From contig JAOUMJ010000024.1 in the NCBI GenBank assembly GCA_029881495.1, positions 1 through 42,919 on the forward strand: a DNA stretch of 42,919 bases, in the 5' to 3' direction. Under the pieces are notes generated by a model. The model saw nothing but the letters and a program-made list of their open reading frames with translations, was not told where the DNA came from and did no database searches. The DNA comes from Nitrospinota bacterium (GTDB lineage: Bacteria > Nitrospinota_A > UBA7883 > JACRGQ01). Position 1 is the stretch's first letter, and every line of letters begins with the position of its first letter. A program made the position numbers and the translations under genes. This document shows, one piece after another, positions 4,323 to 39,594 of this stretch.

Positions 4323-6480
4323 TCTTGATATCCTCCATTGATGGGCCAGGCTTCTCCCCGAAGAAATTATAATAATCTATCGCTTCGATTATCCCTTCGG
4401 CATTTTCACCTCTGGCAAAATATATATTCGGCTCGCCCCGGAGCTTTTCCAGTTCCGGACTGTGATTCCCCACAACAACGCCGAGCGTATTGCCCGACAG
4501 CATATCCTCATCGTTGCCGGAATCACCCGCGACCAGAATACTCTCAACTGAGAGACCCCATTTTACCGCAAGGTAACGGATGGCAAGCCCCTTGGATGCG
4601 CGAAGCGGAAGCACGTCAAGATACATGCCATGGGAAAATACCAGTTTCGCGTGAGCGTTGTTCTTTCTCAGCATCATGTATAGATCGGAGATAGGGGGAG
4701 CCTTTGCCGGATCCATGAAATAGCTTATCTTGTAGTGCCCCTGCCCCTTCGGCCCTTGCGGTTTTATACCCGGCAGATTTTTCATCTTCTCCCTTATCAC
4801 TTCAGGGTTCCACCTGTAGGCGATATTGCGCTCGTAACCGGAATCCTTCACAAGCCTCCGCCCATAGTAGATCTCACTGCCTACCGAAGTTATCAGCAGG
4901 TTGGGGACCGGAATGTTCCACTCCTTAAGGACGCTCATTGTCAGCTTGAGGCTTCGTCCTGTAGCAACTCCGAAAATAACCTTGCGTTCCTCCTCATTCA
5001 GCATTTTCAAAAGGCGATCCAGCGATGGTTTGTCCCCTACAAGTGTGTTGTCTATATCGCAGACAAGTATCCTGTCTGCGGTGATAAGCCGCCTGCTGTT
5101 TGTCGTTTCGATCCTCACCTTTCTCTCGTTGGCGTTTATGGCCCTCTGAACATGGCGGAGGTATTTCTCCACATGCCCATCCCAGGAGTAATGTTTTTTC
5201 ACGTTTACCAGGCCGGCCTTTACCCATCTCCCTCTTCTCTTTTTATCGGAGAGCGAAGCCATCATCGCCTTCCCTATATCGGAGGTATCGAACGGATCAA
5301 TCAGCATTCCGTTTTTACATGTTGCGACTATTTCCTTTGCGCCGCCGTTCTTTGTGGCGATAACCGGCAAACCGGAGGAGGCCGCTTCCAGAAGCGTCAA
5401 CCCGAACGGCTCCGTGATGGCCGGATTGATAAAGATACCGTTCGTTCTGGCGGCAAGCCTGTATATTTTCTGCACATCATCAGGCTCATGGTTTTTGGGA
5501 ATGCCTACGCACCCCCAGAGGTCGTAGTAATCGATCAGGAGAAGGAGGTCGTTGAATATTACCCTCTGCGATTTTTCCATCAGCCTTATATCCTCACGCG
5601 TCCCAAGTACCAGCAAAAGGTTCGCCCTATCCCTCAAACCTTTAGTCTCTCCAAACGCTGTCACAAGGCCGAGAATATTTTTCTTTGCGTCCGGGCGGGA
5701 CAAGGCAAGGATCATCGGCTTCTTCGGGTCGCTGAAAAACTTGAATATGTTTCGCTCAAGGGTTTTATCGTTATCCTTTACCTGCGATACCGTTTTATAT
5801 TTTGATACGTCAACCCCCGGAGGGATAACGAGCATCCTCTTGCGTGCATAATTGGCGTAGACCCTGTATTGCTCCTCCACCTCCTGTCTGGTGCTGGTGA
5901 CAACGAACGAAGCGTTTTCGATCGAGATCTCCTCCGCTTCTATCCTTCTTTTGATATTAAAATTCTTTTCAATAGACTCAGCTTTCATCCCCTGCTCAAG
6001 CAGTCTCTGCTCCTTCACCTTCCCAAGCGAGTGACCGGTAAACGCCATCGGTACACCGAGAAGTCCCGACACGTAAGAACAGACGTATCCCGCATCCGCG
6101 TAATGCCCATGAATGAAATCTGGCATACGTCGGTTATTGCGGAGATATTCGATGATACTGTCGGCAAAATTGCTCATGTATGGCCAGAGAACCTCTTTCC
6201 GGAGATACCTGTTCGGCCCGCATGGAAGCCGTACGATATTAAATCCCGGAGATATCTTTTCATAACCGACGGCGTAATCCGGGCTCACCCTGCTATCTAT
6301 TATCTTCCTGGTCACAAGATCGACGGTATCTACGTCAGGATGTCTCGCAAGTGCCTGAGCCAGCTCCACCACATATTTTATCTGTCCCCCTGTGTCCGAA
6401 TCCCTCCCCAGTTCCATATGCGAACCATGCACCAGGCCGTGCATGCTCACAAGAACGATATAATACTTTTCCTTACGCAT
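4315..6480 (-). CDS. spsA: Bifunctional sucrose-phosphate synthase / sucrose-phosphate phosphatase
   Basis: The enzyme transfers glucose from an NDP-glucose to fructose-6-phosphate and can then dephosphorylate sucrose-6-phosphate. Residues about 1-440 are a GT-B glycosyltransferase ([19 protein letters not shown] near the start; [16 protein letters not shown] near the donor site). From about residue 470 there is a HAD-superfamily sucrose-phosphatase domain: DIDNT at 475-479 supplies the Asp nucleophile and acid/base, and GDSGND at 653-658 binds Mg. Both motifs are intact, so the phosphatase half is probably active; in some cyanobacterial homologues it has decayed. The gene overlaps its neighbours by 8 nt on each side (fructokinase upstream, sucrose synthase downstream). 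Length (721 aa) matches two-domain bacterial SPS proteins. Family call is secure; dual activity is inferred from the motifs. Confidence 0.95.
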
Positions 6481-7408
6481 CCTGTTTACCCCAATCGGCT
6501 AGAAACCTGTCATAAAGCGAACGGTCCTTGCTCGTAGCCCCCCTTATTCCGCATATCTCGGACGCGAAGGCTATCGCTCTCTCCATGGATCTCTCAATAG
6601 TCCATCTGTTCGAAATCCCCAGAATGATGACAGAGCTGAACGCGTCACCAGCACCGACGGTGTCTTCAACCTTTTCAACCTTATTTGCTTTGTGGAAAAC
6701 AAGACCGCTACTGGAAGACGATACCGCCCCCTCTTCCCCCATGGTTACTATCAGGTTTTCAATCCCTGATTTTTCCCTGAATTTTTCAGCAACCTCCAGC
6801 AAGGTTCCCCTCGACGTCAAACTAGATCCCGAAAGCGTTTCAAGCTCCTCGTTGTTCAGCTTCACCCATGTGGCGCCGACTATTGTCTTGCACACCTCTT
6901 CCGTATCAAACCACGGCTCGCGAAGATTCACATCTATGAACCTTGGGATCTCACGCGATGAATAAAGCATTTGAAGCGAAGATCTTGAAACGGGCGAACG
7001 GGTAATGAGGCTTCCATGGTATAGAAGTGAGAATTTCCGCTTGCCAAACCTCTCCTCCAGAAAACCGGGATCGATAAAATCGTAAGCCTGTTCGGGAAGT
7101 ATATCGAAGGTATGACCGTCGCCTGACATCTCCACCTTTACCTCGCCGGTTGGGTATTCCGAATCCCTGAACAGGCCGGTAACCTCAAGACCCCAACTCT
7201 CCATCTGGGTAATTATCTGATCACCCTCCCTGTCGCGCCCGACAGAACTTACAAAAAGAGGATCCAAGCCGAATCCCTTGAGGTTCCATGCCACGTTGAA
7301 CGGCGCGCCGCCAAGAACGCTCTTTCCATCGGAAAACTTGTCAAAAAGAACTTCACCGAAAATAAGGGGACGTCTGGAGTCTGAAAAAAACAACGGTTTG
7401 ACCTCCAC
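6473..7408 (-). CDS. PfkB-family sugar kinase, probable fructokinase
   Basis: A 311-residue ribokinase/PfkB-fold kinase that most likely phosphorylates fructose to fructose-6-phosphate. The N-terminal PfkB signature is GGAPFNVAWNLKGFGLDP. The C-terminal signature is EDTVGAGDAFSS, whose Asp255 is the catalytic base and whose glycines form the anion hole. Specificity is inferred from context: fructose is released by sucrose synthase and fructose-6-phosphate is the acceptor for sucrose-phosphate synthase, both encoded immediately downstream with 8-nt overlaps. The start is GTG at 7408; an in-register ATG two bases upstream is in the wrong frame, and AGGGAG lies about 11 nt upstream. It is the first gene of the sucrose operon and is divergent from the antiporter gene. 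Other PfkB substrates are possible. Confidence 0.9.
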   Translation of the reverse strand: MEVKPLFFSDSRRPLIFGEVLFDKFSDGKSVLGGAPFNVAWNLKGFGLDPLFVSSVGRDREGDQIITQMESWGLEVTGLFRDSEYPTGEVKVEMSGDGHTFDILPEQAYDFIDPGFLEERFGKRKFSLLYHGSLITRSPVSRSSLQMLYSSREIPRFIDVNLREPWFDTEEVCKTIVGATWVKLNNEELETLSGSSLTSRGTLLEVAEKFREKSGIENLIVTMGEEGAVSSSSSGLVFHKANKVEKVEDTVGAGDAFSSVIILGISNRWTIERSMERAIAFASEICGIRGATSKDRSLYDRFLADWGKQDA

Positions 7409-17189: not shown

Positions 17190-17828
17190 CTACCTGCCGA
17201 GGCTCCTTACATATGCGCCGACATCGATAATCTCGCCGTCGTTGAGAGTGCCGTCCCATGGGGGCATGAAGTCCCCTTTGCCGTCATGGATTACCTGGAT
17301 CAGCTGTTCATCGGAAATCTTTTTCATGCTCTTGTCGGTGAAATCAACCATCTTTATGCCGATCAGTTCTGCAAGAATCCCTTTACCGGTGCCGTGCTGA
17401 TCATGGCAGGAAACACAAGCGCTCTTGAATATCTCCCTCCCCTTTCTTTCATCACCTCTCAACTGGAGGTTGGATCTTTTAAATCTCTTTATGAAAGCGG
17501 CAAGATGGCGCAGGTTTGATTCGGGTATAGCGTCTTTCCATAAAGGCATGGCCGAACCATCTTTCCTTCCGTAGAATCCGATAACCTTCACGAGCTCTTC
17601 GATGCTTTTTACCTGATATTTGTTTTCGGTCAGGTTCACAGGAGATATTTTCCGTTTAATCGCCAGAGGGCCGTTCCCCTTGCCATCAGTACCGTGGCAA
17701 ACAAGACAATAGGAGCGGTAAAGATGCATACCGATGTTCGCGTCGGTTTTGCTGTCCCCTTCGGCGAAGGAAGCCGCTACCGAACCAAACAGGAATACAG
17801 CCAAAAACACCATGCTTCTCATAATCAA
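17190..17828 (-). CDS. Exported dihaem cytochrome c, last gene of the ACIII operon
   Basis: A 212-residue periplasmic protein with a signal peptide (SMVFLAVFLFGSVAASFAEG) and two class-I cytochrome c domains. Haem 1 is CLVCH at 41-45 and haem 2 CVSCH at 138-142. Each is followed by a GxGxG-type loop, with likely axial Met residues in GSAMPLWKDA and DFMPPWDG. It sits 19 nt after actE in the same direction. The canonical operon has actF here or no further gene, so this extra cytochrome could be an additional subunit or the acceptor that carries electrons from ACIII to the oxidase or NirS. That role is inference from position. It is about twice the size of the monohaem ActE. Confidence 0.9.
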   Translation of the reverse strand: MIMRSMVFLAVFLFGSVAASFAEGDSKTDANIGMHLYRSYCLVCHGTDGKGNGPLAIKRKISPVNLTENKYQVKSIEELVKVIGFYGRKDGSAMPLWKDAIPESNLRHLAAFIKRFKRSNLQLRGDERKGREIFKSACVSCHDQHGTGKGILAELIGIKMVDFTDKSMKKISDEQLIQVIHDGKGDFMPPWDGTLNDGEIIDVGAYVRSLGR

Positions 17829-17847
17829 CTCCTTTACCTGTTCCAGC

Positions 17848-18318
17848 CTACTGCTGTAATTTCCTTAAATAAGCGGTTACATGCCATGCCTCTTCGTCGG
17901 AAAGCTCGTTTCTGTATCTCGGCATGATGGATTCGCTTGCGAGTATTTTTACGAAGAGTTCGCCATCTGTCAATGATGCTGTCCCTTCTTCCGTCAGATC
18001 AAACGGCATTGTTTCCATTTTCTGAGCAACGGGGGTATCTGCCTTGCCGGTAGGGCCGTGACAAGTTTCGCAATATATCGCATACAGAGGCTTCCCCTTT
18101 TCAGCCGCTTTCGCGTCAAGCGCGAATGGAGCTTCAATGGTAACCCCGTCAACGCCGAGGTAGCTTATCCGTCTCCCCTTGGCAGGTATTGACCTGACAG
18201 GTGCAAACTTTTTTGGGCCTTCCTGAGGTTTTATCGATACCTGATCCCACAGGTTTCTATCATAGTTTTCACATCCGGCAATAAAAACGAGCGCGAAGAT
18301 AAGAGCAAGGTTTCTCAA
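17848..18318 (-). CDS. actE: ACIII subunit ActE, monohaem cytochrome c lipoprotein
   Basis: A 156-residue lipoprotein (lipobox FIAGC, Cys16) with one haem site, CETCH at 83-87, and a probable Met ligand in ESIMPRYRN. In alternative complex III, ActE is the monohaem cytochrome on the periplasmic side that passes electrons out of the complex. The middle (residues 30-65, ISYLGVDGVTIEAP) matches the ActE style, in which a loop precedes the haem domain. The start overlaps the actD stop by 4 nt (ATGA). The assignment rests on haem count, lipobox and operon place and is secure as part of this complex. Confidence 0.92.
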   Translation of the reverse strand: MRNLALIFALVFIAGCENYDRNLWDQVSIKPQEGPKKFAPVRSIPAKGRRISYLGVDGVTIEAPFALDAKAAEKGKPLYAIYCETCHGPTGKADTPVAQKMETMPFDLTEEGTASLTDGELFVKILASESIMPRYRNELSDEEAWHVTAYLRKLQQ

Positions 18319-18833
18319 AAGTCCCCCTTCCCTTTTATTATCTTTACAGCCCCGGTGGATTTCATGATCCCCTCTATCTTTGACGCCTCCGCGTCATCTT
18401 TGCACCTTACGAGAACGCCTATCTTCCCGTCGGATATCTCGGGGTCATACGCCTTCTCGGTCCAGTCCGGCATACCGCCGTACCAGAGCATGCCGATTAC
18501 GCTGCCGAGTACTATTCCAAGCAGTGTGGTTTCATAACAGATGACGCCGACAACGGGGAAAGAGACCGGGTCCTTCCCGCCGACGTTAAGGTTCATTAGC
18601 CACTGTGTGAATCCGGCAAGGAAAAGCCCGGCGCCAAGACCGCCGAATCCCATAATCCCTGCCCACTTCCAGAGGGGTCTCTCCTCTTCATGGAAAAGGG
18701 CGCCGTTCGGATAAACAGTATTCGTAAGCAGAGAGATATCCTCGTGCTTTATGGCTGCTTCATCAAGAGGTTTCATCACCTTCGCAGTTATTTCGATATC
18801 TTCAAATAGAGCTAAAACTGTAGGATTCATCAA
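18315..18833 (-). CDS. actD: ACIII subunit ActD (DUF3341 membrane protein)
   Basis: A 172-residue protein with a soluble ferredoxin-like N-terminal part (VLALFEDIEITAKVMKPL) and two central membrane helices (MGFGGLGAGLFLAGFTQWLM and VVGVICYETTLLGIVLGSVI), followed by a soluble C-terminal part (IGVLVRCKDDAEASKIEG). This is the DUF3341 arrangement typical of ActD, a structural subunit that binds ActC in the membrane. It overlaps actC and actE by 4 nt each. No cofactor motif is present, as expected. Confidence 0.92.
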   Translation of the reverse strand: MMNPTVLALFEDIEITAKVMKPLDEAAIKHEDISLLTNTVYPNGALFHEEERPLWKWAGIMGFGGLGAGLFLAGFTQWLMNLNVGGKDPVSFPVVGVICYETTLLGIVLGSVIGMLWYGGMPDWTEKAYDPEISDGKIGVLVRCKDDAEASKIEGIMKSTGAVKIIKGKGDF

Positions 18834-20287
18834 TGTTCCCCCGGATCGCCGTAGGCGCGTATGTTTGTATTACCAATCGCAATATCACCGGTAATGATCT
18901 TGCCTTCCTTGACATCCGCAATCGTAACTATCGGCATCAGTTTAATAAATATCGCGTATAGCATCAGGAAGTAGGCGGCCGCGCCAACCGCAATTGAAGT
19001 CTCGATAAATGACGGCCAGTAGTCTGTCCATGTGTAAGGATTGTCGCGGTGAGTCAATACAGGCACGACTATCAGGTATCGCTCAAGGTACATAGCCGTG
19101 TTTACCCAAATCGTTATGAATAGGAGCATGCCGGGACTTTTCCGCACCCAGTCCCATGAGAGAAGGCCGATAGTAGCTACCGAACAGCCAAGCATTACGA
19201 TCAGCTGCAGGGAGAATCGTTCCGTCTGCCACTCCCATACGTTCATCTCCACCGGATTGTTCCCGTACCATGTGACAAGATAGTCGGTGAAGTAGAAGTA
19301 TGTCCAGATTATGGACATCAACAAAAGCATCTTTGAAAGGTTGGTCAAGTGGACCAGCTTTATAACATCGTCCAGCTTGAATACCCACCTGAGAAGTATC
19401 ATCAGCGTAATAACGCCGGCAACACCCGAATAGATGGCGCCAACAACAAAGTATGGCCCGAATATCGTCGTATGCCAGACAGGCGTGATACTCATTGCGA
19501 AGTCCCACGATACGATCGTGTGAACCGAAGGGGCTATCATAAGAACGAATATGGCCAGGTATATCGAAGCTTTCTCGTATATCATCCACTGCCTGTGGGT
19601 TCCTCTCCAGCCAAGGGCGAGGATCTTGAGATACAGGCTTCTCCAGTTACCTTTCGGGCAGAGATCGCGCGCGACCGCAATGTCGGGCAAAAGGCCGACA
19701 AAAAGGAAGAGCGACGAAGCTGTCAGGTAAACCGTGATGGCGGTCATGTCCCACGCAAGAGGGCTTCTCAGATTCGGCCAGAGTTCCCTCTGGTTCGGCA
19801 GCGGAAACATGTAGTATACGCGCCATAATCTACCGACGTGAATAAGCGGGAACATGCCGGCGACGAGGAGTGAAAAGGTTGTCATCGCCTCGGCGCCCCT
19901 CAGTATCGGCCTTCTCCAGTTTGCGGATACCAGCCTTAGAATACTTGAAACCATCGTGCCCGAGTGGCTGACGCCGACCCAGAAAACGAATGTAGCGATG
20001 TACATACCCCAGAATACGGGGTGTTTCAGATTTGTAACCCCCATGCCGTTCCATATCTGGTAGCCCCAGCACGCTACTGCCCACGCTACAAGCGATGAAA
20101 GCGCAAGAGTATATACGAACCAGGCTTTGGTTGTTCTGAACATTGGGCGCAGCGATTTTTCATTCAGTATCTCATCCGACATATGCAGGTCAACGTCGCT
20201 GCCCGCATTGATACCATGCGCCTTACCTTCATTTTGAAGGGTCTGGAATTTGGTCGTTAATATGTGTTTTTCAGAATGGGAACCCAT
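18830..20287 (-). CDS. actC: ACIII subunit ActC, quinol-binding NrfD-like membrane protein
   Basis: A 485-residue integral membrane protein of the NrfD/PsrC family with about ten transmembrane helices between residues 55 and 455 and hydrophilic ends. ActC carries the menaquinol/ubiquinol site of alternative complex III and may carry proton paths. The charged, aromatic stretches typical of ActC are visible (VGVSHSGTMVSSILRL, RRPILRGAEAMTTFSLLVAG, HTIVSWDFAMSITPVWHTTIFGP begin and end inside such helices). The ATG shares its A with the actB2 stop (TGATG). There is no second NrfD-like gene, so ActF is missing from this operon. Confidence 0.93.
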   Translation of the reverse strand: MGSHSEKHILTTKFQTLQNEGKAHGINAGSDVDLHMSDEILNEKSLRPMFRTTKAWFVYTLALSSLVAWAVACWGYQIWNGMGVTNLKHPVFWGMYIATFVFWVGVSHSGTMVSSILRLVSANWRRPILRGAEAMTTFSLLVAGMFPLIHVGRLWRVYYMFPLPNQRELWPNLRSPLAWDMTAITVYLTASSLFLFVGLLPDIAVARDLCPKGNWRSLYLKILALGWRGTHRQWMIYEKASIYLAIFVLMIAPSVHTIVSWDFAMSITPVWHTTIFGPYFVVGAIYSGVAGVITLMILLRWVFKLDDVIKLVHLTNLSKMLLLMSIIWTYFYFTDYLVTWYGNNPVEMNVWEWQTERFSLQLIVMLGCSVATIGLLSWDWVRKSPGMLLFITIWVNTAMYLERYLIVVPVLTHRDNPYTWTDYWPSFIETSIAVGAAAYFLMLYAIFIKLMPIVTIADVKEGKIITGDIAIGNTNIRAYGDPGEH

Positions 20288-21006
20288 CAGGCCCCTCCTT
20301 TTAGATAATAAACGGATGGATGTGTGCCATGCTCTTCCAGCAGCCTGTGGCGCCTTTTAGTTTCTATAAGTTTTGCTACCTCGCTTTCGGGATCGTGCAT
20401 GTTCCCGAACGTGATGGCATTTGTCGGGCAGGTCTGTCCGCAAGCCGGCATGATATCGCCGTCTTGTACCTTTCTACCTTCATCCTTCGCCCTGTCCTTA
20501 CCGCGCCTTATGCGCTGCATGCAGAAGCTGCATTTTTCCATAACACCGGCGTCCCTTACAGAGACATCGGGATTTAACTGTTCGTTGAGCGGGCTTTCGA
20601 AACCGTAATCAAACCAGTTGAACTTCCTGACCGAATAAGGGCAGTTGTTTCCGCAAAATCTGGTCCCGATACACCTGTTGTATATCATCGCGTTTAGCCC
20701 TTCGGGATTGTGATATGTCGCAAATACCGGACACACAGGCTCGCATGGAGCGTTTTCACACTGCTGACACATCATCGGCAGAAATACGGTGCGTATGTTC
20801 GGCCACTCACCTTCAAAATATCGCTCAATCCTGAGCCATGACATAACGCGCTTTTGAAGGGCAAGCTCCTCACCGACAACTGCAACGTTGTTCTCGGCTT
20901 GGCAACTTACGGTGCAAGCGCCGCAACCGTTACAGCGGTCGAGGTCGATGACCAGCGCCCACTTGTAATCGTTATCGTGCTTGGTGTTAAAAGACCAGCT
21001 AACCAC
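20287..21006 (-). CDS. actB2: ACIII iron-sulfur subunit, separate ActB2 (four-cluster ferredoxin-like)
   Basis: A 239-residue NrfC/PsrB-like protein with four cysteine groups: CNGCGACTVSC; CQQCENAPCEPVCP; CIGTRFCGNNCP; and CSFC paired with CGQTCP. In alternative complex III this domain holds three [4Fe-4S] and one [3Fe-4S] clusters and moves electrons towards the haems. In described complexes it is the C-terminal half of one ActB polypeptide; here it is a free gene 21 nt after the molybdopterin-like part. It has no signal peptide of its own, so it presumably crosses the membrane folded together with the Tat-bearing ActB1 (inference). Confidence 0.93.
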   Translation of the reverse strand: MVSWSFNTKHDNDYKWALVIDLDRCNGCGACTVSCQAENNVAVVGEELALQKRVMSWLRIERYFEGEWPNIRTVFLPMMCQQCENAPCEPVCPVFATYHNPEGLNAMIYNRCIGTRFCGNNCPYSVRKFNWFDYGFESPLNEQLNPDVSVRDAGVMEKCSFCMQRIRRGKDRAKDEGRKVQDGDIMPACGQTCPTNAITFGNMHDPESEVAKLIETKRRHRLLEEHGTHPSVYYLKGGA

Positions 21007-21027
21007 TTACAACTCCCCTCTCATAAA

Positions 21028-23274
21028 TTACAGTTGGAAGATCTCTGTTCCTTCGTATTCCCCTTTGGGATTCGCCTCTCGAATAATATCCTTTTTGGTC
21101 CCTGTTTTTGTGACTTTCACCCGGATGGCGCGCCATGCAGGCAGTCCGCCGTTCCCGTTCGGGAAATCACCCAGCAGATCCATGGCATTTGCCCCTCTTG
21201 CTGTAGCATTCTTGCCGAACGAGACATGCCCATAACCGAAAGGAACTGCCACTGTTTCAGGCCCGATTCCCGGATAAACAAGCGCCGGAGCTTCAACGGA
21301 TCCGAAAGGGGATTCCACTTTCAGCATGTCACCGTTGGCGACCCCCATACCCTTGGCGGTTTTGGGATTGATCTCTACCCATGAACCCCAGCTGACTGTT
21401 GTCATCGGCTCGGGCATCTCCTGCAACCAGCTGAGGTTGCTTACGTTTCCATCTCCCATGTTCACTGTGCTGTACGGATGCAGGTAGAAGGTGAAATCGT
21501 TCCCGCCGGCAAACGCAGGATCGCCAACCTTTAACTGATCAGACGTAACCCACGCGCTACCTTCGGAGATGGCCTTTTCGGCTTTGTGATGGATATCAGC
21601 CCACCAGCCGCCCTTTTGAAGAAGTGCTTCCCAAGCCTGCTTCTCATTAAGACCGGCAGGTATTCCGTTCCATTTAGAACGGAACTGGATCAACATGTTC
21701 TTTACCATGACTTCCTGATTTGCAATACCGACTCCAAGGCCAGCCATTGATGCCGCTTTTAAAAGCGCATCGCCAGCCTGCATGGTACCGGGTGCGGCGT
21801 TAACCACCGGCTGAATAGTATTGAATACCGGAACTCCGTGCGGGAAATCGACGACCTGCGCGGACCACGATTCAAGGAAATGAAGGTCCGGCAATACCAC
21901 ATCCGCGTAAAGCGATGTATCGTCAAGGAAATTGGTCACCTGCGCCACAAACTTCACCTTCGTAAGTGCATCAGCCGCCTTCAGCGCCTTCGGGGTCGCG
22001 TATACCGGGTTTGAATGGAGAATCAACCCAAACCTTTGGCTCCCAGTCGCTGCTTTTCCAATAACCCCCTTGAGTGCGGAGTATTTTTTCGCTTTTTCAG
22101 GCACGCCGATGAATTCGTTCATCGCGCGATAAAGCTCCTTGTTCTCCTTTGGCAGAACCGGTACGGAAGACAAGCCCTTCTCGGCGGCAAGCTCGCGGAG
22201 TATGGAATTGAGGAACTCAACCGCTTTTAGCGACTCAAGGCCATTGGTATGCAGGGCGACATCGTCACCCGGAACAACAACAGCCGGTAAATGCTCAACA
22301 AGCTCCATTGCAAGGTGTTTTACCTTGTCAGCCGGTACAGTGGTCCTGATGCTGGTCTCTTCAGGGGTATACCCTCCAATGGCATGGCGCCACTCTTCGA
22401 CCTTGGTGGCCGGGAGATTCTTTAAAAGATGTTCCTCCTCTGCAATATGCAGAATTTCATTCGCTATTCCGAGCGCAAACTGCCCCAAAGTCCCCTGTTT
22501 TACAGCGAAAAAATGATCCGCAGAGGCGGCTGTCATAGAAAGCCTGGGGCCCGCATAGAAAAGCTGTCCCCTCTTTGTCTTGTTCCCCCTGCGCATCTGG
22601 CCGAAAGCCCAGCCATAATGCACCGGCGAAGCGCCCCCTTCAAAGATATCCGCTCCAAGCAGAAGAACTGCCGATGCGTTGGCGATATCATAATAAGGAA
22701 CCTTCGGTGTTCCAGTAGACGAAGTCGCTTCGATGAACTTCTCCCTCGAATCAAAACCCGAAACCGCGAAATTGTCCGAACCCATGTTTTTCAGGATTCT
22801 GGCGGTAATGGCGGCCGTCATATCGGAACCGTCGCCAGCTATAATGAAGGAGCTATCCTCCTTGGCGTTTTTCATATTTTCAGAGATCATGGAAATGGCT
22901 TCTTCCCATGTAATCGGCACCAGGTTGCCCGTCCCCTTGGCCCCTTCGCGGCGCATCGGGGTCATCAGCCTCTCTGGATGGTAAAGCTGTTGAACAGCGG
23001 CTTGCCCTCGGGCGCAGACGCCCCCCTTGTTTATTGGATGATCAGGATTTCCCTCAACCTTCTTGGCGCGCCCCTCAACTACGCGAACCATGATCCCGCA
23101 ACCAGAATCACACATCCTGCAAGCGGTGTTATAGAACCACCCTTCAACAGGATTAATTCCTTCATCGGGCGGAATTGCAAACGGAATAACTTTTTGCGCA
23201 ATCTGCCCGCACGAGCCGACCAGACCGGTTGCGGCTACCGTACCGCCGATTTTTAGAAATTTGCGCCTGTCCAT
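21028..23274 (-). CDS. actB1: ACIII large subunit, separate ActB1 (molybdopterin-oxidoreductase-like)
   Basis: A 748-residue protein of the complex-iron-sulfur-molybdoenzyme superfamily. The N-terminus has a Tat signal (DRRKFLKIGG) followed by a lipobox-like LVGSC (Cys22), so it may be a Tat-exported lipoprotein. A CX2CX3C...C group (Cys52, Cys55, Cys59, Cys87; CRMCDSGCG, then VCARGQ) matches the Fe-S site of active molybdoenzymes. Later segments (FTFYLHPYSTVNMGDG, the C-terminal VNGDML-type dinucleotide-binding domain) are normal for the fold. In described ACIII the B1 domain binds no molybdenum. It lies between actA and actB2 with 20- and 21-nt gaps. The split from actB2 is real: two separate frames each with a stop and start. 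Confidence 0.92.
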   Translation of the reverse strand: MDRRKFLKIGGTVAATGLVGSCGQIAQKVIPFAIPPDEGINPVEGWFYNTACRMCDSGCGIMVRVVEGRAKKVEGNPDHPINKGGVCARGQAAVQQLYHPERLMTPMRREGAKGTGNLVPITWEEAISMISENMKNAKEDSSFIIAGDGSDMTAAITARILKNMGSDNFAVSGFDSREKFIEATSSTGTPKVPYYDIANASAVLLLGADIFEGGASPVHYGWAFGQMRRGNKTKRGQLFYAGPRLSMTAASADHFFAVKQGTLGQFALGIANEILHIAEEEHLLKNLPATKVEEWRHAIGGYTPEETSIRTTVPADKVKHLAMELVEHLPAVVVPGDDVALHTNGLESLKAVEFLNSILRELAAEKGLSSVPVLPKENKELYRAMNEFIGVPEKAKKYSALKGVIGKAATGSQRFGLILHSNPVYATPKALKAADALTKVKFVAQVTNFLDDTSLYADVVLPDLHFLESWSAQVVDFPHGVPVFNTIQPVVNAAPGTMQAGDALLKAASMAGLGVGIANQEVMVKNMLIQFRSKWNGIPAGLNEKQAWEALLQKGGWWADIHHKAEKAISEGSAWVTSDQLKVGDPAFAGGNDFTFYLHPYSTVNMGDGNVSNLSWLQEMPEPMTTVSWGSWVEINPKTAKGMGVANGDMLKVESPFGSVEAPALVYPGIGPETVAVPFGYGHVSFGKNATARGANAMDLLGDFPNGNGGLPAWRAIRVKVTKTGTKKDIIREANPKGEYEGTEIFQL

Positions 23275-23294
23275 ATTCTTCCCTTCACCTCAAA

Positions 23295-23858
23295 TTAGGT
23301 ATGGCATGTCCAACAATCTGTCGGAGCCTGCTCCTGCTGGTGGCAGTCCAAGCAGAAACCCATCTTAAATTCGTTAACTTTTCCAACGACTTCCATGGTT
23401 TCAATAGGCCCATGGCATTTCTGACATTCAAACTCTTTTTTGATATGCCGCTTATGATTGAAAAACACATGGTCGGGCAATTTGAAGACCCGCTCCCACT
23501 CGATCGGAGTTTTCGCTTCAATATTTTTCTTCAGGAATGTGATCGCGTCCGACTCAACCGCAAGATTTGCATGACAGTTGTTACAGGTTGAGATCGAGGG
23601 TACCCCAGCCATTTCCGAGCGCCTGGCATAGGTGTGGCAATACTGGCAGTTTATCTTCAGGTCGCCTGCATGCTGTTTATGTGAAAAAGGTATCGGCTGT
23701 TTGGGAGTATATGTGGACAATCCCATGATCGGTCCCTGATAAAAGTAGGTTACCTTGTATGTCAAGACACCGCCCACGATCAGAATGAGTAATGCCAAGT
23801 TGCGACCGATAGCCGACTTGGGCATCAAGGTGCCTATGTCTTTTAAGCTACTCCTCAT
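23295..23858 (-). CDS. actA: ACIII subunit ActA, membrane-anchored pentahaem cytochrome c
   Basis: A 187-residue cytochrome with an N-terminal membrane anchor (LALLILIVGGVLTYKVTYFY, about 21-40) and five haem sites: CQYCH 71-75, CNNCH 92-96, CQKCH 145-149, CLDCH 169-173, CWTCH 182-186. Extra histidines (HKQH, NHKRH) probably give bis-His ligation. Five haems, one anchor and first position in the operon are the hallmarks of ActA, which takes electrons from the ActB clusters towards ActE. A strong Shine-Dalgarno (AAGGGGAAGT) precedes the ATG. A regulatory region of about 475 nt lies upstream. Confidence 0.95.
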   Translation of the reverse strand: MRSSLKDIGTLMPKSAIGRNLALLILIVGGVLTYKVTYFYQGPIMGLSTYTPKQPIPFSHKQHAGDLKINCQYCHTYARRSEMAGVPSISTCNNCHANLAVESDAITFLKKNIEAKTPIEWERVFKLPDHVFFNHKRHIKKEFECQKCHGPIETMEVVGKVNEFKMGFCLDCHQQEQAPTDCWTCHT

Positions 23859-23892: not shown

Positions 23893-23916
23893 AAAAATTC
23901 AGCTGCATCCCCCTGT
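23893..23916 (-). promoter_or_regulatory. Leader motif shared by actA and nirS (actA copy)
   Basis: On the plus strand, AAAAATTCAGCT, one base, then CATCCCCCTGT. The same two blocks stand upstream of nirS with one mismatch and a 4-nt spacer. This copy ends 35 nt upstream of the actA ATG. Function is unknown: 5' leader element, operator or part of a promoter. Confidence 0.55.
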
Positions 23917-24001
23917 GTTCAGCCTAGCTAAATCTTTAGTGTGCGTAAGACTACCCAAAAAATAATTTTGACACAAGCCTTTTTTTTATTATTTTTTCTC
24001 A

Positions 24002-29630: not shown

Positions 29631-31196
29631 CTACTTGGTGTAGTTGTACGGGGTCCAGTCCGCCGCAATCTGCGGGATGGTGGCAAAGTTGCCCGGTCCC
29701 GGAGGGTTCGGCGTATGAGTCCATTCAAGCGACTTTGAGTTCCACGGATTTGCCGGCGATTTCTCGCCCGCTATTGCGCCGTGTATCCAGTTGATAATAG
29801 TAATCGCCATACCGAGTGCTACCATGACCGCCCCGTATGTGGCTATGTGATGGTAACTTTCCGCCTCCGGCATCATCGGATAATCATAGTAGCGTCTTGG
29901 CATACCCATTACTCCGACAATGAAGAGCGGCCAGAAGGTTACGTTTACACCTATGAAGTTAAGCCAAAAGCCTAGTTTCCCCATGGTCTCGCTCGCCAGC
30001 CTCCCTGTCATTTTCGGGAACCAGAAGTAAATCGATCCGAAAACGCAGAAGGTGGCAAAAATCCCCATTATGAAATGGAAATGAGCATGAACGAATGACG
30101 TCTCGCCGACATGAAGGTCAATGACCGTCATGGCAAGCGGAATCCCGGTCAATCCTCCAAGGAGGAGAAGAAAGAGACATGCTACTCCATAGTACATGGC
30201 GGTATTGAATGTTATCGCGCCCTTATACAGGGTTCCCCACAGGGAGATGACGGTAAGTCCGACTGGAACCGAAATAAGAAGGGTAGTAACCATCTGCCCT
30301 ATCCTTATCCAGTCCGGCATACCGGATGTGTAGAGATGGTGCACCCATACCTCGCCGCTGATAAGGACGATCCCCCACATACCTCCGTAAACAAGCGCCT
30401 TGTAGTTGAATATCCTGTTCTTCGACATGGTAGCAATGATCTCAAAGAGAAGCCCCATAGCCGGAAGGAATATTACATATACAGCGGGATGCGAGTAAAA
30501 CCAGAACAGATTCTGGTATAGAAGCACGTCCCCGCCGTTATCCGGGCTGAAGAAATTTGTCCCCAGATATTTGTCGAATAGAATTAGCGTAACAGCCGCG
30601 GCCAGTACCGGAACGAAGATAAGCTGAATTATCAAACCGGTAAATATCGACCAGACAAAAACGTTCAACTGGTTCCATCCCATGCCGGGTGCCCTAAGGT
30701 AAATGATCGTTGTAAGGAAATTCACCGCGCCGAGAATGGAAGAAAAACCTATCAGATGCACAGTGAAAACGTAAAACGAAGTATTGCCCGCGGTCTGCAC
30801 CGAGTACGGGGGATATCCGGTCCACATCACATCCGGCGGATCGGGTATGACGAAAGTAAGAAGGGCCACGACAATCCCCATCCAGTACAGCCAGACGCTT
30901 AGAGCGTTCACTCTCGGAAAGGCGACATCCTTCGCGCCGATCATCAGCGGAATGAAATAGTTCGCGGCAAACCCCGTCAATCCCGGTATCAGAAATCCGA
31001 GTATCATCGCTGCGCCGTGAAAATAGAGCCAGACGTTGTACTGAGTCGGATCCGAAATGAGATCGGCTCCGGGGCTATACTGCTCAGCCCGGATCAACAG
31101 CGCCATTATCCCCGCAACGGCAAAGGCGGCAATCGATCCTATGAGATATAAGATACCGACCCTTTTATGGTCGGTAGTAAAAATCCACTCTTTCAT
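29631..31196 (-). CDS. coxA: Cytochrome c oxidase subunit I, A2-type
   Basis: A 521-residue haem-copper oxidase catalytic subunit with about twelve transmembrane helices. Low-spin haem ligands are His60 (YFHGAAM) and a His in FVHAHFHFIMG. CuB ligands are His236, linked to Tyr240 in FYSHPAVYVIFLPAMG, and His286/His287 in VWVHHLYTSG. Helix VI has YSHP rather than the Glu-bearing GHPEVY, which is the mark of A2-type oxidases, so the D-channel end uses Tyr-Ser. The enzyme reduces oxygen to water and pumps protons. AAAGGAGAGGAAACCT precedes the ATG. It is last in the operon, which is unusual in order (III, SCO, II, I). No subunit IV was found. Confidence 0.96.
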   Translation of the reverse strand: MKEWIFTTDHKRVGILYLIGSIAAFAVAGIMALLIRAEQYSPGADLISDPTQYNVWLYFHGAAMILGFLIPGLTGFAANYFIPLMIGAKDVAFPRVNALSVWLYWMGIVVALLTFVIPDPPDVMWTGYPPYSVQTAGNTSFYVFTVHLIGFSSILGAVNFLTTIIYLRAPGMGWNQLNVFVWSIFTGLIIQLIFVPVLAAAVTLILFDKYLGTNFFSPDNGGDVLLYQNLFWFYSHPAVYVIFLPAMGLLFEIIATMSKNRIFNYKALVYGGMWGIVLISGEVWVHHLYTSGMPDWIRIGQMVTTLLISVPVGLTVISLWGTLYKGAITFNTAMYYGVACLFLLLLGGLTGIPLAMTVIDLHVGETSFVHAHFHFIMGIFATFCVFGSIYFWFPKMTGRLASETMGKLGFWLNFIGVNVTFWPLFIVGVMGMPRRYYDYPMMPEAESYHHIATYGAVMVALGMAITIINWIHGAIAGEKSPANPWNSKSLEWTHTPNPPGPGNFATIPQIAADWTPYNYTK

Positions 31197-31228
31197 AGGT
31201 TTCCTCTCCTTTAATTTTTTATACCTGT

Positions 31229-31987
31229 TTATGTCCTGTCAGGCATATTTGCCGAAACCGGCAATATCCCTGGAGCGGCCTTGGCGGTTCCGGTTTCCGC
31301 CATATTGTCCAGCCATGCGTTGAATTCATTTTCCGAAACGACGTTTACTTCGGCGTTCATCTCCGCATGTTGAGCGCCGCAGAACTCAGTGCATGTGGCA
31401 TATGTCTTTGCGATTTCAGTCGGATTAAACCAGAGATATGTAACCCTCCCCGGCATCAAGTCTTCCTTTACCCTGTACTTGGGTAGGAAAAAGGAGTGGA
31501 CTACATCATCACTGATCATACGAAGTACCACCGGTCTTCCTACCGGGACCGTCAGAACATCTGAGGTCGCTCCGTTCTCATATTCAAATTCCCATGACCA
31601 CATGCTTCCGGTGACTTTCACCTCAAGCGCGTTTGCTGGAACCCTTCTATAGGTATTCCAGACGGTCCATCCTTTCGCGGCGAGATAGAAATCGTCTGCC
31701 ATGAAGATGAATGCCGGAATAAGCGCCCAGCCCCACATTTGCGCTGTTGTAAGTTTTACGGGGGTGCCGACATCTTCGGGACTCTTTGCGCGGTATTTGA
31801 AAACCATGTAGATCGCGGCGGCGGCAAAAATTCCGCCCAACACAAAAAGATCCATGAGAACATGGTTCCAAAGGTGATCCCAATCGGAAGCGGGATTGGG
31901 TATCTCACCGCCGCCCCCCGAAGCTGAAGCAGGCGACGCAAAAAGCATTGCCAGCCCTATGCCCCTTACTAACGAAATTGAACTCAT
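31229..31987 (-). CDS. coxB: Cytochrome c oxidase subunit II (CuA)
   Basis: A 252-residue subunit with a signal peptide (LVRGIGLAMLFASPASA), two membrane helices and a periplasmic cupredoxin domain. The CuA site is complete: Cys199, Glu201, Cys203, His207 and Met210 in CTEFCGAQHAEM, plus His164 in DDVVHSFFLPKY. It accepts electrons from cytochrome c. No fused cytochrome c domain is present, so the oxidase is aa3-like and not caa3. The ATG at 31987 is chosen because GGAGG lies 7 nt upstream, inside the SCO stop region; an open frame to 32134 is only overlap with that gene. It sits two bases after the SCO stop and 32 nt before coxA. Confidence 0.95.
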   Translation of the reverse strand: MSSISLVRGIGLAMLFASPASASGGGGEIPNPASDWDHLWNHVLMDLFVLGGIFAAAAIYMVFKYRAKSPEDVGTPVKLTTAQMWGWALIPAFIFMADDFYLAAKGWTVWNTYRRVPANALEVKVTGSMWSWEFEYENGATSDVLTVPVGRPVVLRMISDDVVHSFFLPKYRVKEDLMPGRVTYLWFNPTEIAKTYATCTEFCGAQHAEMNAEVNVVSENEFNAWLDNMAETGTAKAAPGILPVSANMPDRT

Positions 31988-31989
31988 AA

Positions 31990-32820
31990 CTATACCTCCA
32001 TTGATTTTCTTTTTTTCTTGAAGATAAATACCGAGCCGAGAAACAGGGATATCCCCAGACCGAGAGAACCGACAGCCACAAAAAGAGGAATATTTAAGGA
32101 ATATTTTCCGTCCTTGTAGTTGTAGCTGTAGCAAAACCCCAGGACGAGGCTTGTTATCTCCGTCGGTTTGATCTGCTCCTTGGCTGTTTCAATTAACGCA
32201 AGTTCCACGTCTTTGCTGCTGACTGTTGAAGAATATAAATATCTTGATACCCTCCCTTCAGGAGTCACAAATATAAATACACTCGGATGGAAAAATGTCC
32301 TGTCCCGTGGAGACCAGAAAAAGTTGAACCCGAGAGATGAAGTAAACGGTTTTATCTCATCGGCATCCTTTATCCTTGCTATTGTCCAGCCTTTCTTGAA
32401 ATCAGCAGGCATTCCCAGCTCCCTGGTGAACATCTCCATGGTTTCAGAATTATCATGACTGTCAAAAGATACAGTAATAACATGGTAGTCATTGCCGATA
32501 TTGAACCGTTCGATGCTTTCCAGAAGATTCAGGAGCTCGATATTGGTTACCGAGCAGGCTCCATCACACTTGTAATAAGAAAGTACCAGGATCATGGGCT
32601 TGCTCAGATTCTCGCCGAGAGTGAACTCTCTCCCGGTCATGTCCAGAAGTTTCAAATCACCATTTATCTTTTTACCAAGGTATTCTTCCTGGTCGATTAA
32701 AAATACATTCGGATCAATTTCAGATTCGGGACTCCGGTTATACCTTGCCGACACTATCGTAGACGCAACAAGAATTGCCACGGCTGTCAGAACCCCTATT
32801 CTGGACATATTTAACAACAC
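31990..32820 (-). CDS. SCO1/SenC copper chaperone
   Basis: A 276-residue protein anchored at both ends (MSRIGVLTAVAILVASTIVS at the start, IPLFVAVGSLGLGISLFLGS near the end) around a thioredoxin-like domain. Copper ligands are Cys85 and Cys89 (KCDGAC) and His178 (RTFFHPSV). SCO proteins load copper into the CuA site of subunit II, which is encoded directly downstream. The start is GTG at 32820 with AGGGGTGG just upstream; the in-frame ATG at 32808 is too far from that site. A second, C-terminal membrane helix followed by a basic tail (KKKRKSMEV) is less usual for SCO. Confidence 0.92.
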   Translation of the reverse strand: MLLNMSRIGVLTAVAILVASTIVSARYNRSPESEIDPNVFLIDQEEYLGKKINGDLKLLDMTGREFTLGENLSKPMILVLSYYKCDGACSVTNIELLNLLESIERFNIGNDYHVITVSFDSHDNSETMEMFTRELGMPADFKKGWTIARIKDADEIKPFTSSLGFNFFWSPRDRTFFHPSVFIFVTPEGRVSRYLYSSTVSSKDVELALIETAKEQIKPTEITSLVLGFCYSYNYKDGKYSLNIPLFVAVGSLGLGISLFLGSVFIFKKKRKSMEV

Positions 32821-32842
32821 TCAACCACCCCTGAAATCCTGA

Positions 32843-33589
32843 CTACCAGAAATATACCTGCGTTACGACAAAGAACCAGATAATATCGACAAAGTGCCAA
32901 TACACGCTTGCGCACTTTACGAATGTATCATTCACTCTTCCGCCAAGCGCCGGTATAAGCACGGCAATGAACACGCATACGCCGACAAGGACGTGAGCCG
33001 CGTGGAATCCGGTTATCGAGTAAAATGCCGAACTGTAGATATTGGTCGAAGTGCCAAACCCTTGGTGAAGAAGATGATTGTACTCATAGGCTGTAAAGCC
33101 TAAAAAGATTATGCCAAGACCGATAGTGGTCATCAGCCATGATCTGAATCCGCCAGCATCGCCCGCATCGAGCTTCTCTTCGGCAAAATGAATGGTCACG
33201 CTGGAAGATACCAGAACGATAGTCATCAAAACCGGAATGACCAGATTGATATGCGGAGTACCAGCCGGAGGCCATGTATCCGAAAGAAGCCTTAATCCCC
33301 AGTAGCTTGAAAACAGCCCGAGGAAGATGAGCACTTCCGACGTGATGAAGATCGGCAAGCCGACCTTTGAATAGCCGAACTGCCATTCATTCGCTCCTAT
33401 CCCTTCATTTATCCATCCTGAAATACCGGCAAGAAGAACCGGTACACCGATTCCGAGGCACGCGGTAGCCATTCCAATACTCTCATACTGGAAATAACTT
33501 GCGAATGCCAAAGGAACGGTGAAAAGAAGTCCAACTGCAATGACAATTGGTGCCCAACTCGTTTCCCAATGATGTTCATGAGCCTGCAT
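32843..33589 (-). CDS. coxC: Cytochrome c oxidase subunit III
   Basis: A 248-residue membrane protein with about seven helices (first TM from residue 13). Family stretches are ITSEVLIFLGLFSSYWGLRL, SYGFTAYEYN-like segment LGFTAYEYNHLLHQGF, YSITGFHAAHVLVGV and VYWHFVDIIWFFVVTQVYFW. Subunit III stabilises the proton-pumping core and binds lipids. AAGGGGG stands 7 nt before the ATG. It is the first structural gene of the oxidase operon, 22 nt ahead of the SCO gene and 54 nt after the Rrf2 regulator gene. Confidence 0.94.
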   Translation of the reverse strand: MQAHEHHWETSWAPIVIAVGLLFTVPLAFASYFQYESIGMATACLGIGVPVLLAGISGWINEGIGANEWQFGYSKVGLPIFITSEVLIFLGLFSSYWGLRLLSDTWPPAGTPHINLVIPVLMTIVLVSSSVTIHFAEEKLDAGDAGGFRSWLMTTIGLGIIFLGFTAYEYNHLLHQGFGTSTNIYSSAFYSITGFHAAHVLVGVCVFIAVLIPALGGRVNDTFVKCASVYWHFVDIIWFFVVTQVYFW

Positions 33590-33643: not shown

Positions 33644-34129
33644 TCAGCTTTTCCCATGCATAGCCTCCAAAACTGACAACGGAGATATTTCAGGGATAAC
33701 TTCACCATGCTTTTTCCTGACCAGCTCCATATGTCTATTAACAAGATCCCGGAAATTCTGTTTCTCAAGTATTTCCCTTATTGCGCTCTGGCATTGCTCC
33801 CACATTTCATGTAGCGAGCAAATCTCGTCCCTTGGGCATTTCCCGTCGCAAATCAGGCAGTCATTAAGAAAAAGCGGCCCCTCGATTTTTGCGATAACCT
33901 GCCATGGAGATATTGACTCCGGCGGCATGCTCAAGGTCACACCCCCCTTTTTTCCTTTTGACGAAGAGATGAATCCTGAGACCCTCAGGTACTGGATAAT
34001 CTTTTTTAAAAACGGCTGGGGTATTTCCTGCATTTTGGCAATCTCTTCAGTCGTACACATGCCATTACGAACTGATAGGTGAAAAATCGTCCTGAGTGCG
34101 TATTCACCTTTTCTGGACAATCTAAACAT
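33644..34129 (-). CDS. Rrf2-family Fe-S transcription regulator
   Basis: A 161-residue Rrf2 regulator. The N-terminal winged helix (RLSRKGEYALRTIFHL, TTEEIAKMQEIPQPFLKKII, SSKGKKGGVTL) binds DNA. A cysteine cluster follows: Cys91, Cys94, Cys98, Cys104, then His107 (LHEMWEQ). The spacing of Cys98, Cys104 and His107 equals that in IscR, and Rrf2 proteins with such residues hold a [2Fe-2S] or [4Fe-4S] cluster that senses Fe-S status, NO (NsrR) or redox. It is not an enzyme-type Rrf2 without cysteines. It lies 54 nt upstream of coxC and may be co-transcribed with it. Its target is inferred to be the oxidase genes and perhaps nirS. Confidence 0.9.
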   Translation of the reverse strand: MFRLSRKGEYALRTIFHLSVRNGMCTTEEIAKMQEIPQPFLKKIIQYLRVSGFISSSKGKKGGVTLSMPPESISPWQVIAKIEGPLFLNDCLICDGKCPRDEICSLHEMWEQCQSAIREILEKQNFRDLVNRHMELVRKKHGEVIPEISPLSVLEAMHGKS

Positions 34130-37825: not shown

Positions 37826-39430
37826 CTAGTATATGTCGTGCATGGTGTTATAAATGTTGAACTTTCCTGTCGGAGTCCTGAGGTCTGTAATCCTCTTCTT
37901 AACTTTGCGGGTTTTGTCGTCGAGGATGACGATCTCGCCCTTTTGATCCCAGACAGACACCCAAAGCTCGTCGCCGTCCTTGTTGTATTCCATGTGAACA
38001 ACGCGGCCTCTGTCAGCAAGCTTGATCATCTCAACCTTCTGAATATCATTGATATCCATAACGCCAAGGCTTACCCTTGTATCCTCACCCGTGTTCAGAG
38101 GGAAGTCTACCCAAACGTTTTTGCTCTTGGGATGTGTTTTGAGGAAGAGCTGTCCGCCACCCTCAACGCCTGCGGCCTTTTCAAAGTCGACTTTGTAGAG
38201 AACTTTCCATGCGTTGTCTTTGTGCTTCGCAGGATCAGAACCCCAAACAGTCATTACAGCTTCACCGATGTGAACCGTTCCGGTAACCGGACCATACTTT
38301 GGATCGGTCCAGTTCGCACCGCGGCCAGGATGCGGTTTAGCGCCTGTTTTAAACTTGGCAACTTTCGTCCTGGTCTTGGTATCGATAACTACCATGGTGT
38401 CGCGTGCGTTTGCAGCAGACATGAAGTAGCGGTGTGTTGCGTCCCAACCACCATCGTGAAGGAACCTTTCAGCCTCAATCATCTTGACATTGAGGTTTGC
38501 GAGGTCAGAGTAATCAACAAGCCAGATGTAGCCAGCCTCTTTAACGTTTATTACCCACTCAGGCGAGTAGTGCGAAGAAACGATAGCGGCAACGCGCGGC
38601 TCAGGATGGTACTCGTTGGTGTCGAATGTATAGCTCCTTGTGCTTACAACCTTGAGCGGCTCAAGGGTCGCGCCATCAAGAATTGCAAGGTGAGGAGGCC
38701 AGTAACAGCCGACAACGGCGTATTTGTCCTCAAAGCCTTTGTACTTGGATGTATCGATAGACCTTGCTTCCGAGCAGGTTTTGATCTCTGCAACGAGAGC
38801 TGGAGTCTTCATCCACATATCCATCATGGTCGCCTTACCGTCGCGGCCGATGGAGTAAAGATAGCGGCCCGAAGCAGACACGCGAAGAATGTGAACGGCG
38901 AAGCCTGTGTTCAGGGTAGCAAGTTTCTCCTTGGTATCACCATCAAATATGGCTACCTGACCGGCATCGCGAAGAACAACACCGAAGAAATTCTGCCAGT
39001 TCTTGTTGTGCGCTGGCTTTGTCGGCCTCTTGTCCACAGGAACGGTCACTTTCCATGTTGCCTTCATATCGGCAAGCGAGATCTCAGGCGGAGCTGTTGG
39101 CTCCTGCTGAATGTAGCGGGCCATCAGGTTAATCTGCTGTTCATTCAGAATACCGAGGTCTCCGAACGGTACCATACCGCCGGCTGTACCGCTCTGGATG
39201 AATACTGCGAGAACATCAGTTCCCATCTCAAGTGTCTTTTTCGGCTCAAGGGCTGGGCCGGTTGCTCCCTTTCGTAGAACACCGTGGCACCCTGCGCACT
39301 CCTCAAAATAGATTTTTGCTCCTTCCTTCATCTCCTTTTCGGTCATCTTCGGCGCCGCAGTTGCCTGCGATGCGCTGAAAATCAACGCGAAGGCTGATAA
39401 GAAGGTGATCAAGTAACCGAACCTCTTCAT
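37826..39430 (-). CDS. nirS: Cytochrome cd1 nitrite reductase NirS
   Basis: A 534-residue periplasmic enzyme reducing nitrite to nitric oxide in denitrification. Signal peptide FGYLITFLSAFALIFSASQA; haem c site CAGCH at 45-49; then an eight-bladed d1 propeller. The propeller shows the proximal His in GFAVHILRVSASGRYLYSIG and both active-site histidines, in EYHPEPRVAAIVSSH and in FLHDGGWDATHRYFM. The end PTGKFNIYNTMHDIY is nearly that of Pseudomonas NirS. These histidines separate it from NirF and argue against NirN. AGGGGAGG lies 6 nt before the ATG. It stands alone; no haem d1 synthesis gene (nirE, F, G, H, J, D/L) is visible in the window, so those must be elsewhere. The small signal-peptide-plus-haem N-terminus is standard. 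Confidence 0.97.
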   Translation of the reverse strand: MKRFGYLITFLSAFALIFSASQATAAPKMTEKEMKEGAKIYFEECAGCHGVLRKGATGPALEPKKTLEMGTDVLAVFIQSGTAGGMVPFGDLGILNEQQINLMARYIQQEPTAPPEISLADMKATWKVTVPVDKRPTKPAHNKNWQNFFGVVLRDAGQVAIFDGDTKEKLATLNTGFAVHILRVSASGRYLYSIGRDGKATMMDMWMKTPALVAEIKTCSEARSIDTSKYKGFEDKYAVVGCYWPPHLAILDGATLEPLKVVSTRSYTFDTNEYHPEPRVAAIVSSHYSPEWVINVKEAGYIWLVDYSDLANLNVKMIEAERFLHDGGWDATHRYFMSAANARDTMVVIDTKTRTKVAKFKTGAKPHPGRGANWTDPKYGPVTGTVHIGEAVMTVWGSDPAKHKDNAWKVLYKVDFEKAAGVEGGGQLFLKTHPKSKNVWVDFPLNTGEDTRVSLGVMDINDIQKVEMIKLADRGRVVHMEYNKDGDELWVSVWDQKGEIVILDDKTRKVKKRITDLRTPTGKFNIYNTMHDIY

Positions 39431-39469: not shown

Positions 39470-39496
39470 AAAAATCCAGCTTAACCATCCCCCTGT
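39470..39496 (-). promoter_or_regulatory. Leader motif shared by nirS and actA (nirS copy)
   Basis: On the plus strand, AAAAATCCAGCT, four bases (TAAC), then CATCCCCCTGT; the actA copy has one mismatch and a 1-nt spacer. This copy ends 40 nt upstream of the nirS ATG, against 35 nt for actA. Confidence 0.55.
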
Positions 39497-39580
39497 TACA
39501 AATCACAGCTTTCCGGTCAAGCTAGTACGGATTATTAAAACATATTTTTTTCTTAATCGTAACATAAAATTCTTTTTTTT

Positions 39581-39594
39581 TTGATTGGTCGCAA
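39581..39594 (-). promoter_or_regulatory. Possible FNR/DNR-type site upstream of nirS
   Basis: TTGAT-N4-CGCAA matches the FNR/DNR consensus TTGAT-N4-ATCAA at 8 of 10 positions, about 150 nt before the nirS ATG. A TACGAT box (39561-39556, minus) lies about 29 nt further on, roughly where a -10 would be. nirS is often under such regulators, but this site is imperfect. Confidence 0.35.

Follow-up and report, generated by a model that had tools for sequence, protein, structure and literature searches.

Known leader elements and the nirS/actA locus

One known mode of nirS control is by Crp/FNR-type regulators, for example DNR in Pseudomonas aeruginosa (PMC8139620). Among relatives of the uncultured Nitrospinota bacterium considered here, a 5-4-5 palindrome of the ATGAC-N4-GTCAT type, likely a Crp/FNR-family operator, is found upstream of nirS in 7 of 11, at these sites:

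L004, 3149-3162
L005, 1350-1363
L006, 3224-3237
L010, 3412-3425
L011, 3213-3226
L012, 3213-3226
L014, 1251-1264

The present genome differs: no such box precedes its nirS, and the two sequence blocks that its nirS and actA leaders share do not form an ATGAC-N4-GTCAT palindrome. The element made up by these blocks resembles the structured leader RNAs of Rfam (riboswitches and protein-binding leaders) in placing a predicted hairpin near the start codon, in having an unpaired, sequence-constrained segment, and in standing before a few functionally related operons. It differs from them in being known from two copies in one genome, with a single compensated pair between these in place of covariation across species, and in matching no Rfam family at the gathering score (matches up to E 10 are at chance level only). 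Targeted searches of open full texts turned up no publication that describes a hairpin in the nirS leader. A third described system, CsrA, selects in SELEX the consensus RUACARGGAUGU, in ligands whose stems mostly have four bp or fewer (PMC7652899); the comparison with it is taken up below.

The shared blocks and their rarity

The window, by which we mean the whole 42,919-nt stretch of contig JAOUMJ010000024.1 that was analysed, holds the two genes and the four block copies as follows:

23295..23858, minus strand: actA, multihaem cytochrome c, first gene of the alternative complex III (ACIII)-type cluster 17190-23858
37826..39430, minus strand: nirS, cytochrome cd1 nitrite reductase (Cytochrom_D1, 2.9e-124)
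23906..23916, minus strand: shared block 1 of actA, ACAGGGGGATG, mostly unpaired according to pairing probabilities
23893..23904, minus strand: shared block 2 of actA, AGCTGAATTTTT, predicted 3' arm of the hairpin
39486..39496, minus strand: shared block 1 of nirS, ACAGGGGGATG; its ACAG is predicted to pair with CUGU at 39505-39508 (P2), leaving GGGGA unpaired
39470..39481, minus strand: shared block 2 of nirS, AGCTGGATTTTT

The general form is ACAGGGGGATG-N1/N4-AGCTGRATTTTT, with N1 in actA and N4 in nirS; in full, the coding strands read ACAGGGGGATG-C-AGCTGAATTTTT from 23916 to 23893 and ACAGGGGGATG-GTTA-AGCTGGATTTTT from 39496 to 39470. The two copies are identical at 22 of 23 block positions, the one mismatch being A (actA) or G (nirS) directly after AGCTG. 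An earlier note had described the pair at these places and with this identity, and both are reproduced. It wrote the blocks on the plus strand, with the correct letters, but actA and nirS both lie on the minus strand, so that the coding-strand reading is the minus one. The distances that it gave from the blocks to the ATG, 35 and 40 nt, are corrected to 34 nt for actA (ATG at 23858) and 39 nt for nirS (ATG at 39430). Its gene identifications, a nitrite reductase and a quinol-oxidising complex, are sound: the former is of the cytochrome cd1 kind, and the latter is an ACIII-type cluster of the ActABCDE type that comprises multihaem c, molybdopterin, Fe-S, NrfD and ActD components and further c-type cytochromes.

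Elsewhere in the window, a minus-strand Rrf2-family regulator (33644-34129), a candidate Fe-S or NO-sensing regulator, is flanked by an aa3-type cytochrome oxidase cluster (29631-33589) on one side and the nirS region on the other. An FNR-like sequence, TTGATTGGTCGCAA (39581-39594, 2 mismatches), is located outside the element, some 150 nt before nirS begins. At 1923-7408 on the minus strand, adjacent genes for sucrose synthase, a fusion of sucrose-phosphate synthase and phosphatase, and a PfkB kinase form a bacterial cluster for sucrose metabolism.

The block pair exceeds what chance provides. The 34 gene leaders of the window, in 557 pairs, were scored for split blocks of 11+12 nt with spacers of 0-6 and low complexity excluded, the block lengths having been picked after the match had been seen. 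The actA-nirS pair has the highest score, 22, and the next pair has 19. Dinucleotide shuffles of the actA and nirS leaders reached 22 in 2 of 235,178 cases and shuffles of random leader pairs in none of 354,220, for a chance of about 0.005 after correction for the 557 pairs. Over the whole 2.82-Mb genome, with up to 3 mismatches and spacers of 0-10, the blocks occur together at two sites only, the actA and nirS leaders (a reversed-pattern control gave 0 sites); the genome-wide scan that the earlier note proposed thus adds no copies. Either block alone, with 1-2 mismatches allowed, is common. A covariance model of the hairpin described below, run to E 10, and a loose descriptor, AGCT...GGGGGATG...AGCT, likewise found no further copy resembling the leader hairpin anywhere in the genome; the extra descriptor matches that were inspected lie inside ORFs, except for one with ORFs on the opposite strand only.

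The main rival to any functional reading is that the similarity is coincidental or an inert remnant: AT-rich leaders with G-rich, ribosome-binding-like runs would match by accident, or a palindromic segment would have been copied once and serve no function. There are, after all, just two copies, and ribosome-binding sequences in leaders of the clade commonly take the form of G-rich runs such as AGGGGGA. Generic gapped alignment of the actA and nirS leaders also yields a less decisive statistic than the split-block score (8 of 28,672 shuffles, about 2.8e-4 per pair and about 0.16 over all leader pairs). The corrected split-block value points the other way, as do the 12-bp helices of both leaders and their corresponding distances from the ATG. 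We consider this rival unlikely, but it is the one to be taken most seriously.

A hairpin common to both leaders

In both leaders, RNA folding assigns block 2 to the 3' arm of a 12-bp helix without interruptions (in nirS, the arm and the block overlap). The 5' arm, with YUAGCU, lies upstream of the blocks, and the core of each 12-bp helix is YUAGCU/AGCUGR. The predicted parts are:

39470..39525, minus strand: nirS leader hairpin and start of the U tract, CUAGCUUGACCGGAAAGCUGUGAUUUGUAACAGGGGGAUGGUUAAGCUGGAUUUUU; fold -23.1 kcal/mol, z -6.3
39514..39525, minus strand: nirS hairpin 5' arm (P1), CUAGCUUGACCG; 12 uninterrupted pairs with 39476-39487
39476..39487, minus strand: nirS hairpin 3' arm (P1'), UGGUUAAGCUGG, from the fold; overlaps block 2
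23893..23937, minus strand: actA leader hairpin, AAAGAUUUAGCUAGGCUGAACACAGGGGGAUGCAGCUGAAUUUUU; 12 uninterrupted pairs
23926..23937, minus strand: actA hairpin 5' arm, AAAGAUUUAGCU; pairs with all 12 bases of block 2

The blocks probably correspond, then, to the loop and one of the arms of a small hairpin in RNA; the two-block motif as first described was real but amounted to half of this structure, the 5' arm and with it the hairpin having been missed. In nirS, the helix CUAGCUUGACCG/UGGUUAAGCUGG encloses a CUGU/ACAG stem and an unpaired GGGGA; in actA the helix of AAAGAUUUAGCU with block 2 encloses a possible CUG/CAG stem and the same G run. The GGGGGAU run is predicted to be largely unpaired in both leaders, with a pairing probability for GGGGA that is near 0 in nirS and <0.3 in actA. 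The difference between the spacers of 1 and 4 nt corresponds to the nirS helix extending further inward.

The nirS hairpin is strong by energy: none of 200 shuffles folds as well, and its z is the strongest among about 40 leaders compared. By the same measure the actA hairpin is weak, its fold energy being ordinary (251 of 1500 shuffles as good; z -1.3 in a separate fold test). Stem length was tested by shuffling the 50 nt that precede block 1 while keeping the blocks: a 12-bp stem on block 2 arises in 0.51% (nirS) and 0.46% (actA) of shuffles. AGCT is self-complementary, so that part of the pairing follows from its repetition. The single mismatch between the blocks is compensated on the opposite arm, C39525-G39476 in nirS answering to U23931-A23899 in actA; this is one pair from two sites in one genome, which is not phylogenetic covariation. 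MAFFT aligned the outer arms but misplaced the inner CUG/CAG stem, and the covariance model (R1) was therefore built on six outer pairs. The sequence pair, its rarity, and a pairing potential with one compensated difference are thus matters of observation.

Between the two leaders, the arm-to-arm distance differs by 17 nt and the block spacer by 3 nt. These variable loop and spacer lengths fit an RNA better than a rigid operator. That the blocks are instead a DNA site, an operator or promoter part through which one transcription factor acts on both operons, would accord with their leader location, with the one clear Crp/FNR-type regulator of the genome and with the Rrf2-type regulator encoded in the window. 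It is made less likely by the fact that neither the spacing of the blocks nor that of the AGCT arms is fixed. Moreover, the blocks contain no recognisable Crp/FNR or other site, no TTGAT-N4-ATCAA-like palindrome occurs inside the element, the FNR-like boxes of the window do not exceed chance, and block 2 runs into a T tract. We judge a DNA site to be improbable.

Attenuation is another alternative. The nirS stem, at -23 kcal/mol and followed by A-U8, could be a regulated intrinsic terminator. The U tract of actA, however, is paired within a helix that is rich in A-U and poor in G-C pairs, and no further U follows; a G-C-rich stem with a free U tract is accordingly not a property of both copies, and the nirS hairpin has it in part. 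A terminator scan found none in either leader, and attenuation would account for nirS but not for the shared blocks. It is a very unlikely explanation.

The leaders might alternatively share a short upstream ORF in the same register, AUGCAGCUGAAUUUUUAA (MQLNF) in actA and AUGGUUAAGCUGGAUUUUU... (MVKLDFFWLIYFLI) in nirS. The spacer difference of 3 nt, the reading of the A/G change as Asn/Asp, and the stop of the nirS ORF at the nirS Shine-Dalgarno sequence are what one would expect of it. Yet the G run touches the AUG without spacing and so cannot be its ribosome-binding site, the two peptides are of unequal length, and pairing explains the compensated change better; we find this reading scarcely credible.

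CsrA was considered for the ACA..GGAUG sequence of the element: on this reading ACAGGGGGAUG would be bound by CsrA, and the Shine-Dalgarno sequence would supply another GGA, as in CsrA/RsmA leader hairpins such as that of glgC. ACA and GGAUG are common to the element and to the SELEX consensus (PMC7652899), and csrA is present in the genome (C8:84649-84807). The fit is nevertheless poor. The element reads ACA-GGG-GGAUG, with two G more than the consensus, so that the RUACARGGAUGU spacing is not found. Its GGA lies in an internal or large apical region rather than in a small, AC/GU-closed hairpin loop, and its 12-bp stems contrast with the mostly four or fewer of the SELEX ligands. With 2 and 5 GGA, the two leaders are unremarkable among the 34 compared (0-6), and csrA adjoins flagellin-type and fliW genes, an arrangement that suggests a flagellin role for CsrA. 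A CsrA target is most unlikely. In L194 (36-2177), a flagellin-type gene, csrA and a FliW ORF stand side by side, and the FliW-bearing open frame extends across csrA, which is read in a different frame.

Distribution in relatives

The nearest relatives compared belong to other genera, with NirS identity of 61-68% and ActA identity of 71% at best. The leaders of nirS and actA were inspected in up to 22 relatives from the family and the class and lack the element, and in family, class and phylum relatives it was found neither at nirS, nor at actA, nor elsewhere beyond chance. A pattern search of 192 genomes returned nothing at 0-1 mismatch besides the actA/nirS pair; at 2-3 mismatches it returned 25 isolated matches spread over about 20 genomes. 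Searches of the relatives with the covariance model, and by blastn with the nirS leader, found no copy. In the nearest relative, a genome of the same family but another genus (G001), the A-tract region upstream of nirS aligns and the hairpin segment falls in an alignment gap. The conservation upstream of actA and nirS that the earlier note had made a touchstone was therefore seen in no relative examined, all of them of other genera with NirS identity of at most 68%, and this lack speaks for coincidence. The element would be either a recent gain or one that evolves too fast to be detected at such distances.

The actA leader of G001 (L034) has a hairpin of its own, about 40-100 nt upstream of the actA start, with a GGGGGGUGG run and z -3.5. 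It was considered as a homologue and rejected, being of different architecture and having no partner at the nirS gene of G001.

A candidate leader RNA and its meaning

The explanation that we favour, if tentatively and at somewhat less than even confidence, is a hairpin in the 5' UTR, specific to this lineage, through which both operons may be controlled once transcription has started. The blocks would make up half of this small structure, its loop side and 3' arm, in the untranslated leader RNA of each operon; that this RNA is made, and that it folds in vivo, we infer from the features of the leaders. The helix would hold up an apical region consisting of the short CUG/CAG stem and the largely exposed GGGGGAU, with a U-rich stretch after the hairpin and the Shine-Dalgarno region 30-40 nt further on. 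The exposed purine run would be the most likely recognition surface for a trans-acting factor, whose binding we likewise infer: a putative protein or a (C-rich) small RNA. Such a factor might change the translation or the stability of both mRNAs, and quinol oxidation (ACIII) and nitrite reduction (cd1 NIR) would thereby be made together. A narrower version, in which a new RNA element of very restricted distribution is a dedicated protein-binding site or ligand-sensing leader that couples alternative complex III quinol oxidation to cd1 nitrite reduction, is distinctly improbable.

The shared control of actA and nirS first proposed in the earlier note is plausible because the pair is real and unique in the genome, occupies matching leader positions in two respiratory operons, and is part of a predicted common hairpin with a compensated difference. 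Overall, we regard the element as a real, rare and structurally coherent two-copy feature with a candidate function only. If it is not real, it illustrates how easily a motif with two copies in AT-rich leaders can be taken for a regulatory one; if it is, it would constitute a leader-RNA link between the alternative complex III operon and nirS.
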